Source: Chloroflexota bacterium
GTDB lineage: Bacteria; Chloroflexota; Dehalococcoidia; Dehalococcoidales; UBA5760
Reading direction: 5' to 3'
Length of the DNA: 34,274 nucleotides
Assembly (NCBI GenBank): GCA_015222205.1
Contig: JADFUW010000006.1
Location: forward strand, 1 to 34,274
A model generated the notes under the pieces. The model saw nothing but the letters and a program-made list of their open reading frames with translations. It was not told the origin of the DNA and searched no databases. Each line of letters starts with the position of its first letter. Position 1 is the first letter of the stretch. This document shows, in pieces, positions 2,519 through 4,991 of this stretch. A program made the translations under genes and the position numbers.

Positions 2519-2890
2519 GTGGACAGAGAGAGATTTCGGGAACTGGTGATGAAGGCGGTTGGTAGTCTACCGGAGGAGTTTCGCACTAGACTGGAAAACG
2601 TTGATGTAGTGGTGGCAGACTGGCCGTCTCAAAGTCAGCTGGCTGGTGTAGGACGGGGCCACATGCTGCTGGGTCTTTATCAAGGGGTGCCTCAAATCAG
2701 GAGGGGTAGTCACTATGGACTGGTAGCACCGGATAAAATAACTATATTCCAGAAACCTATTGAGGCCAAATGCAAGTGTGAAACGGAGATTACTGACGAG
2801 ATACACCGGGTGGTGAGGCATGAGATAGCCCATCACTTTGGTACTGGGGAGAGGAGACTGAGGCAGATTGAGCGGGGTGAAGGCTCTTAA
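2519..2890 (+). CDS. Metallopeptidase family protein (minimal zincin-like domain)
   Basis: 123 aa with HExxH-type motif RHEIAHHFG and the LGLYQGVP....I.IF pattern typical of the small zincin-like (DUF1025-type) family. GTG start. Confidence 0.8.
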   Translation: MDRERFRELVMKAVGSLPEEFRTRLENVDVVVADWPSQSQLAGVGRGHMLLGLYQGVPQIRRGSHYGLVAPDKITIFQKPIEAKCKCETEITDEIHRVVRHEIAHHFGTGERRLRQIERGEGS

Positions 2891-4256
2891 CCATATAGTC
2901 TCCCTGTGAAGCGTAGCCGAACTCGGAGCGGTAGTACTCTTTAGCGCCAACGCCGCTTAAAACTACCATCTGTGGCGTCTGGAATTCCTCCTCGGCGATG
3001 CGCTCAGCTTCGGTTAGTAGTGCTTTACCCAGCCCCTTATGCTGAACTGAGTTTGGGTCTCGCTGGCTAAGGGAAACCTCGGGACCATACACATGTAGTT
3101 CCCGTATCAGGGCAACCTTGCCTTCAGTCGTCTGCCCCAATGTGGCTATAGGCTGAGGCTCAATCCTGAGTCGTAATAAGCCAAACAGCGTTTCGTTTTC
3201 ATCTTCAAAGGATAGAAAAATCTCCCTGCCGCCGGAGGCTTCGTAGTCCAGTCTTACCATCCGGGGTTTGCCTATTTCCCAGCCATCCTGTGCTCGGTGA
3301 CCGTACTCCCGGCACCGTATGCACCGGCATTCTATACCCTGCTGCTTCATGCGTTGTTTTGCCACATCTCGCAGCGAATCCTTTAAACCACCGACAATAA
3401 ATTTGGCCGGGATGTCACGCAGCACCCGTGATATTCTGACATATTTGGGTACAATGGACTTAATTGCCATAATCAGGTTAATCATCGTCTCGTCATCATA
3501 TGGTTGATAGCGTCCCTCCCGATACCACTTCTCCAGCCCTGTACCGCTTACTACCATAGTAGGATATAGCTTCAGGCCATCCGGTTTAAAGCAAGAGTCG
3601 CCAAATAGTCTCTCGGACAGTTCCATGTCCAGCTCTGGGGTTGAGCCAGGCAGTCCTGGCATCCAGTGGTAATGCACCTTAAAGCCATGCTCCTTGAGCA
3701 GTGTGGTGGCGGTGACTACATCTTCAATTCGGTGGCCTCTCCTTACCAGCCGGTAGATGTCGTCGTTGAGGGTCTGGACACCGAGTTCCACCCGGGTGGT
3801 GCCGAACTCCAGCATCCTGTCTATTTCCTCTGGGTTACACCAGTCGGGCCGGGTCTCGATGCATAGCCCGGTGCAACGATGGTCTGCCGTTTCGTTAAGC
3901 TTCTTGGCTTCTTCCAGTGTGGCTGTTTCCTTGCCATTTAGGGCATCAAAGCAATCCTTGATAAACTGATATTGATAATCCTTGGGATAGGCGAGGAAGG
4001 TGCCGCCCATTACGATTAACTCAATCTTATCGGTGGGGTGTCCCATCCCGGCGAGGATTCTTAATCTTAGCTCAACCTGTTTCTTGGCATCATAGTCACA
4101 TTTTCTAGCCCGTAATACCGCCGGCGATTCTGGGGTGTAGCTCTGGGGTGTAGCTAAGTAGGTAGGGCAGTAGATACACTGCCCGGGACACTTCAGCGGC
4201 TGGGTCATTACAGCTACCGGGGTAACCCCGGATATTGTCCTGGTTAATTTCTTCAT
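2790..4256 (-). CDS. elp3: Elp3 family radical SAM / GNAT protein (tRNA U34 carboxymethyl synthase type)
   Basis: Radical SAM cluster CPGQCIYCPTYLATPQSYTPESPAVLRA; IETRPDW; RVELGVQTLNDDIYRLVRRGH; C-terminal KAT/GNAT domain QHKGLGKALLTEAERIAEEE...VLSGVGAKEYYRSEFGY..GDYMVKSL. Confidence 0.96.
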   Translation of the reverse strand: MKKLTRTISGVTPVAVMTQPLKCPGQCIYCPTYLATPQSYTPESPAVLRARKCDYDAKKQVELRLRILAGMGHPTDKIELIVMGGTFLAYPKDYQYQFIKDCFDALNGKETATLEEAKKLNETADHRCTGLCIETRPDWCNPEEIDRMLEFGTTRVELGVQTLNDDIYRLVRRGHRIEDVVTATTLLKEHGFKVHYHWMPGLPGSTPELDMELSERLFGDSCFKPDGLKLYPTMVVSGTGLEKWYREGRYQPYDDETMINLIMAIKSIVPKYVRISRVLRDIPAKFIVGGLKDSLRDVAKQRMKQQGIECRCIRCREYGHRAQDGWEIGKPRMVRLDYEASGGREIFLSFEDENETLFGLLRLRIEPQPIATLGQTTEGKVALIRELHVYGPEVSLSQRDPNSVQHKGLGKALLTEAERIAEEEFQTPQMVVLSGVGAKEYYRSEFGYASQGDYMVKSLHPAQSASVSSPQYQSDGLSHASPPGVSRQ

Positions 4257-4322
4257 AGTATACTCATAACCAGTTTAGCAGATTTAAACAGTGGCAACAA
4301 CAAAAAATCTCTTCAGGTTGAT

Positions 4323-4991
4323 ATGGCTGAGACAAAGGGTAAGATAGATATTGATGTATTTAACCAGATAGCCCCGGGCTGGTATAACTTTAGGCACTGG
4401 TCTATATTCCGTAGCGAACTGGAAGCACTGGTGCAGAGGTGGCAGCAGGGCAAGCTACTTAACCTTGGCTGTGCTCACGGTCCTGACTTCCTGCCCTTCC
4501 GGCAAGGCTTTGAGTTATATGGCGTGGATTTTTCTCCTGAGATGCTAAGATTTGCCCGGAGATATGCCCAAAAGTTCAACTTCATCGTGAAGCTATCGCT
4601 GGCTGATGTTGGCCATCTTCCCTTTTCCGACCAGACCTTTGATTGGGCAATTGCCATAGCTACCTACCACCACATTAAGGGTCATAGGGAGCAGCAGATA
4701 GCCCTAAATGAGCTAAGACGAGTGCTAAAGCCGGGTGGTGAAGCCTTTATAACCGTGTGGAACCGTTGGCAGCGCCGGTTCTGGTTTAGGCCGAAAGAAT
4801 TAACTGTGCCCTGGCGGGCCGGAGGTAAGGCGCTGGAGCGCTATTATTATCTTTTTTCTTACTTTGAGTTAGAGAAATTAGCCAGGCAGGCAGGCTTTGA
4901 GATATTAAAGTCCTTCCCCGAAAGCTCCTATCACAATCCGTTTAAGTTCTTCTCCCGGAATATATGTCTACTGGTAAGAAGATTTGACTAG
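4323..4991 (+). CDS. Class I SAM-dependent methyltransferase, Trm9/ALKBH8-like
   Basis: LLNLGCAHGPDFLPF SAM motif; FDWAIAIATYHHI.GHREQQIALNELRRVLKPGGEAFITVWN; LTVPWR...ERYYYLFSYFELEKLARQAGFEI. Organisation resembles eukaryotic Trm9/ALKBH8 methyltransferase domains as recalled (FDFAISIAVVHHWST..R; VPWV; YYHLYREGELEE). Confidence 0.75.
   Translation: MAETKGKIDIDVFNQIAPGWYNFRHWSIFRSELEALVQRWQQGKLLNLGCAHGPDFLPFRQGFELYGVDFSPEMLRFARRYAQKFNFIVKLSLADVGHLPFSDQTFDWAIAIATYHHIKGHREQQIALNELRRVLKPGGEAFITVWNRWQRRFWFRPKELTVPWRAGGKALERYYYLFSYFELEKLARQAGFEILKSFPESSYHNPFKFFSRNICLLVRRFD

Follow-up and report, generated by a model that had tools for sequence, protein, structure and literature searches.

The elp3 locus

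The window analysed here is a stretch of 34,274 nucleotides from a Chloroflexota genome of the class Dehalococcoidia, a group of anaerobes (contig JADFUW010000006.1); its source assembly (G000) measures 941 kb and is 90% complete. Three genes and one intergenic region are considered:

2519–2890, strand opposite elp3: zincin-like metallopeptidase gene (PF06262), overlapping elp3 at the 3' end
2790–4256, minus strand: elp3, 488 aa, radical SAM and KAT (GNAT) domains, predicted tRNA uridine-34 carboxymethylation enzyme (TIGR01211, 5l7j, key residues)
4257–4322, no strand: divergent intergenic region, 66 bp between start codons (sequence)
4323–4991, plus strand: Trm9-like class I SAM methyltransferase, 222 aa, predicted cm5U34 carboxyl-O-methyltransferase (profile, reciprocal search, residues, AlphaFold2 model)

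The elp3 reading frame runs on the minus strand from an ATG at 4256 to a stop at 2790. Its product scores 584 bits against TIGR01211 (family cut-off 350) and 683 bits against the Dehalococcoides mccartyi Elp3 structure 5l7j over residues 1–459, and residues 23–30 form the radical SAM motif CPGQCIYC (CxxxCxxC). The acetyl-CoA pocket of the D. mccartyi enzyme (DmcElp3) is made of K77, K193, E386 and Y441 (PMC6367351), and all four residues are found in the window Elp3 at unchanged positions. The lysine standing in place of R411 is of no concern, as this position varies freely among relatives. The identity of the protein is unambiguous, and the first-pass annotation was right to describe an intact Elp3 with both radical SAM and KAT domains. 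For DmcElp3 itself, weak activity in vitro is reported (PMC6367351, PMC7663514).

Over its final 101 bp (2790–2890), elp3 is antisense to the 3' end of the zincin-like gene. This end of elp3 encodes a C-terminal tail that extends about 29 aa past the D. mccartyi protein; several relatives (L033, L037, L042) seem to share the extended tail as well as the antisense overlap.

At the other end of elp3, the divergent orientation of the methyltransferase gene and the 66 bp between the two starts, as originally annotated, were confirmed. This region presumably holds back-to-back promoters; two sigma-70-like matches lie near it (0.6 expected), both weak and no evidence of function.

The 222-aa methyltransferase matches only generic class I models (Methyltransf_11, 70 bits) and stays below every cut-off of the curated NCBIfam models among its best 25 of 27 matches. 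Filing it with UbiE/MenG or other small-molecule enzymes was rejected, the best score being 43.7 bits against a cut-off of 216 (best 25 of 27 family matches). Its AlphaFold2 model has a pLDDT of 91.5. The motifs FNQIAPGWYNFR, YHHI, VPWR and RYYYLF, on which the likeness to the layout of Trm9/ALKBH8 had been founded, are all present.

The two genes are linked and co-occur

We searched 301 Chloroflexota genomes, 38 of which belong to Dehalococcoidia. At a threshold of E <= 1e-15 the methyltransferase was present in 24 genomes, every one from this class, and Elp3 was found in 52, including 24 of the class. Both genes thus occur together in 24 class genomes, neither in 14 and one alone in none, in either direction (n = 38; Fisher 1e-10, a value that, like the other Fisher value below, overstates the number of independent events because genomes of one phylum are kin). 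The direction of the co-occurrence and exclusion results does not depend on these values.

Linkage is just as regular. The genes are divergent neighbours in all 24 class genomes that carry either of them, across many families and genera, with 30–305 bp between match edges. The same pair appears in 25 of 27 independently fetched public loci, mostly from MAGs of Dehalococcoidia/Dehalococcoidales. In one exception (L049) the match begins 33 bases from the locus end, which leaves the upstream side unreadable, and Elp3 was not detected in its draft genome; the second (L053) carries Elp3 elsewhere in its genome, on a separate contig. Only some relatives retain the zincin, S41 protease and MscS genes that flank the pair. 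MnmA served as a negative control: all 24 genomes have mnmA, and it never comes within 10 kb of elp3. We conclude that the arrangement is far beyond chance, and the conserved linkage predicted by the first-pass annotation holds.

Two contigs labelled Deltaproteobacteria (L044 and L049) carry the methyltransferase at 70–73% identity, L044 with a linked elp3. They are either mislabelled MAGs or cases of transfer.

The methyltransferase resembles Trm9

A search of the PDB with the single protein sequence ranked Trm9 (5cm2, Yarrowia) fourth, and a family profile built from an alignment of 46 orthologs ranked it first, with 74.9 bits. Among the five best PDB matches, four end near residues 138–151 and Trm9 alone runs on through the VPW..RYY lid. 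We also used the 193-residue Trm9 sequence of 5cm2, taken from the PDB alignments, as a reverse query against the 301 genomes. The 24 top-ranking places coincided precisely with the 24 Elp3-linked genes (E 3e-18 to 6e-10); ranks 25 and 26 went to genes next to elp3 in two genomes from outside Dehalococcoidia. The comparison of Trm9 with UbiE profiles that had been proposed at the outset therefore came out for Trm9, which is the top PDB profile match and returns the family in the reciprocal search, with UbiE at 44 bits against 216.

Mutation of R29, H115, R241, Y243 or N271 in yeast Trm9 hurts tRNA binding and catalysis (PMC5372719). These residues correspond to R24, H116, R173, Y175 and N213 of the window methyltransferase, a mapping that rests on 5cm2, which has identical letters at all five functional positions; the yeast Trm9 sequence used for the numbering is one residue off in its C-terminal part. 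R24, H116, R173 and N213 are conserved in 46/46 orthologs and Y175 in 45/46. None of the further class I methyltransferases in the alignment, among them E. coli CmoM, UbiE and two paralogs from the same genome, has the full set.

Overall resemblance is lower, with an identity to Trm9 of only 27–37% in the aligned core. A Foldseek search of the AlphaFold2 model against the PDB placed Trm9 eighth by E-value; of the 50 matches listed, it led in target-normalised TM (0.79) and had the lowest rmsd (3.1). Because the fold is too common, a fold search alone does not discriminate, and we regard this result from a predicted model as supportive, not decisive. In a reduced tree of 32 rows Trm9 joins the methyltransferase family with moderate support (93/71); a 51-row tree with long branches could not place Trm9 because of them and did not recover the two as one clade. 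The Trm9 reading passes every computational test run except robust tree placement. Given the tree and fold results, we call the protein Trm9-like and do not assert strict orthology.

Trm112 is not a general partner

Eukaryotic Trm9 and ALKBH8 require Trm112 (PMC5372719), and a Trm112-like partner had been suggested here too. This suggestion failed as a general rule: stand-alone Trm112 was not found in the genome of the window (G000) or in the complete, single-contig relatives G007, G020 and G048. It is present in about 10 of the 24 methyltransferase-bearing genomes, and this presence is unrelated to that of the methyltransferase, which leaves Trm112 unsupported as its partner. In genomes where Trm112 is missing, the methyltransferase must act alone or with another partner, and we expect it to work Trm112-free there. 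The absence of Trm112, which defines the eukaryotic holoenzyme, is a further reason to name the protein Trm9-like and not Trm9.

Elp3 and the usual bacterial U34 enzymes do not co-occur in the genomes sampled

Bacteria usually modify U34 through MnmE and MnmG; Elp3 is a tRNA-modifying enzyme more typical of archaea and eukaryotes. Across the 301 genomes MnmG occurs in 122 and Elp3 in 52, and no genome has both (p 6e-14). MnmE was above cut-off in four of 28 genomes tested, exactly the four with MnmG; weaker matches in the remaining ones cover mainly the GTPase domain. From this exclusion, Elp3 appears to replace MnmE/MnmG, with the methyltransferase accompanying Elp3. MnmA, found in 28/28 genomes, leads us to expect a 2-thio derivative.

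Neither Elp3 nor MnmG was detected, at the thresholds used, in 127 of the 301 Chloroflexota genomes, including 10 of the 38 from Dehalococcoidia. Four relatives (G039, G178, G186, G249) have two complete mnmA genes per genome; the second copy could possibly serve a second U34 or another thiolation specificity.

Other Elp3-bearing Chloroflexota mostly pair elp3 with a second methyltransferase family

Outside the class, 23 of 28 Elp3 loci have a divergent methyltransferase at most 4 kb away (L099–L122). These proteins form a distinct, more diverged clade (support 100/99 in the 32-row tree) with the motifs FS(A/T)TR, HHIP, PW and LRYVH. They retain R29, H115 and R241 of Trm9 and are without Y243 and N271. 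Five genomes have no linked copy; two of them encode a member of this family elsewhere (L131 in G240 and L136 in G144). The pairing of Elp3 with a methyltransferase therefore has a second form, which, judging from these residues, possibly leads to a different end product.

A PAPS-reductase-like gene sometimes sits between elp3 and the second-family gene. Three loci from other Chloroflexota (L129, L130, L133) encode methyltransferases in which an N-terminal zinc-knuckle of Trm112-like look is joined to a class I domain that has HH and a C-terminal N.

A predicted two-gene route to mcm5U34

The first-pass annotation read the pair as a two-gene U34 pathway. Linkage, co-occurrence, the exclusion of MnmG/MnmE and the conserved Trm9 residues support this reading, and we consider it probable that the pair is a minimal bacterial wobble-uridine pathway, with Elp3 making cm5U34 and the Trm9-like enzyme converting it to mcm5U34, in place of MnmE/MnmG. 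On its own, Elp3 would carboxymethylate U34 at C5 by radical SAM chemistry, drawing on acetyl-CoA. The Trm9-like enzyme would then take cm5U34 as its substrate and methylate the carboxylate with SAM. MnmA could add the 2-thio group, and the likely product, as predicted from the gene content, is mcm5U34, or mcm5s2U34 with MnmA. Such a route would take over from MnmE/MnmG.

The broader version of this proposal extends to the phylum. We lean, with some reserve, towards the view that Dehalococcoidia make mcm5(s2)U34 through Elp3 and a Trm112-independent Trm9-like enzyme, with MnmE/MnmG displaced, and that other Chloroflexota run a parallel version in which the second, diverged family was recruited beside elp3.

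Linkage and mutual exclusion assign the methyltransferase to the U34 pathway and leave its reaction unfixed. The enzyme could therefore belong to the same pathway with another end product, either by methylating another position or by making the ester as an intermediate to the amide (ncm5U). ncm5U is among the archaeal U34 derivatives (PMC5372719), and the residues lost from the second family suggest that products may differ between lineages. We nevertheless think this unlikely for the window's family, which retains the complete set of five Trm9 substrate-site residues, arguing for the same reaction at the cm5U carboxylate.

That the gene encodes a tRNA or small-molecule methyltransferase with no relation to U34, merely sharing a divergent promoter with elp3, is more doubtful still. 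The domain has the generic Methyltransf_11 fold, and the structure search also returned UbiG, glycine and other small-molecule enzymes; however, no small-molecule family model reached its cut-off among the matches listed. The linkage to elp3 holds while the other neighbours change, the two genes co-occur without exception even in altered neighbourhoods, and a related family lies beside most other Elp3 genes, likewise divergent.

The carboxylate of cmo5U34 is methylated in a SAM-dependent reaction by CmoM, giving mcmo5U34. A CmoM-like role would have the appeal of a known bacterial carboxylate methyltransferase at U34, but we rejected it as very unlikely, since CmoB, which makes the substrate, was above cut-off in 0/28 genomes (E. 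coli control positive) and CmoM is without HH, VPW and RYY..N in the alignment.

Comparison with known systems

Our preferred reading, the Elp3/Trm9-like route to mcm5U34, bears on a concrete gap, as direct evidence for the U34 derivatives of Elp3-bearing Dehalococcoides is lacking (PMC7663514). The pair offers a testable answer to this question. It also points to the swap of a whole pathway between bacterial and archaeal/eukaryotic wobble decoding, and provides a small, possibly Trm112-free Trm9-like enzyme as a subject for biochemistry. Relatives of Trm112-dependent methyltransferases were described as not detectable in bacterial genomes (PMC5372719). A full-text literature search, largely limited to papers outside subscription, turned up neither a bacterial Trm9 nor bacterial mcm5U.

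E. coli CmoM (mcmo5U34 synthase) shares with the predicted enzyme the SAM-dependent methylation of a U34 carboxylate in a bacterium. It differs in its residues and in its substrate, cmo5U; CmoB, the synthase of cmo5U, is missing from the 28 genomes. The MnmE/MnmG system, which yields cmnm5U and nm5U, serves the same nucleotide position and decoding role (PMC7663514), whereas its enzymes and chemistry are others; MnmG was never found with Elp3 (301 genomes), and MnmE only in genomes with MnmG (28 genomes).

The likeness to eukaryotes is closer. Elp3, the catalytic subunit of Elongator, is common to both systems, Elongator acting with Trm9-Trm112 or ALKBH8, and the methyltransferase shares with Trm9/ALKBH8 the class I domain, the N-terminal R, HH, VPW, RYY and the C-terminal N. 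The other Elongator subunits, Elp1/2/4-6, are not expected in bacteria (PMC13315578). The Chloroflexota pathway would differ from the eukaryotic one in that many genomes do without Trm112, the genes are adjacent and divergent, and thiolation is probably carried out by bacterial MnmA.

Archaea provide the nearest precedent. Haloferax volcanii has Elp3 and predicted Trm9 homologs (HVO_0574/HVO_2888), and the Elp3 and Trm9 genes are clustered in Sulfolobus solfataricus (PMC2584109). The arrangement seen at this locus is therefore not unique to bacteria. Both systems combine a stand-alone Elp3 with a predicted Trm9-type enzyme; they differ in that the archaeal control genomes have Trm112, while here the host is bacterial and the pair appears in place of MnmE/MnmG. 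We conclude, as a prediction with good support, that the elp3–methyltransferase pair is a new bacterial version of a pathway known from archaea and eukaryotes.
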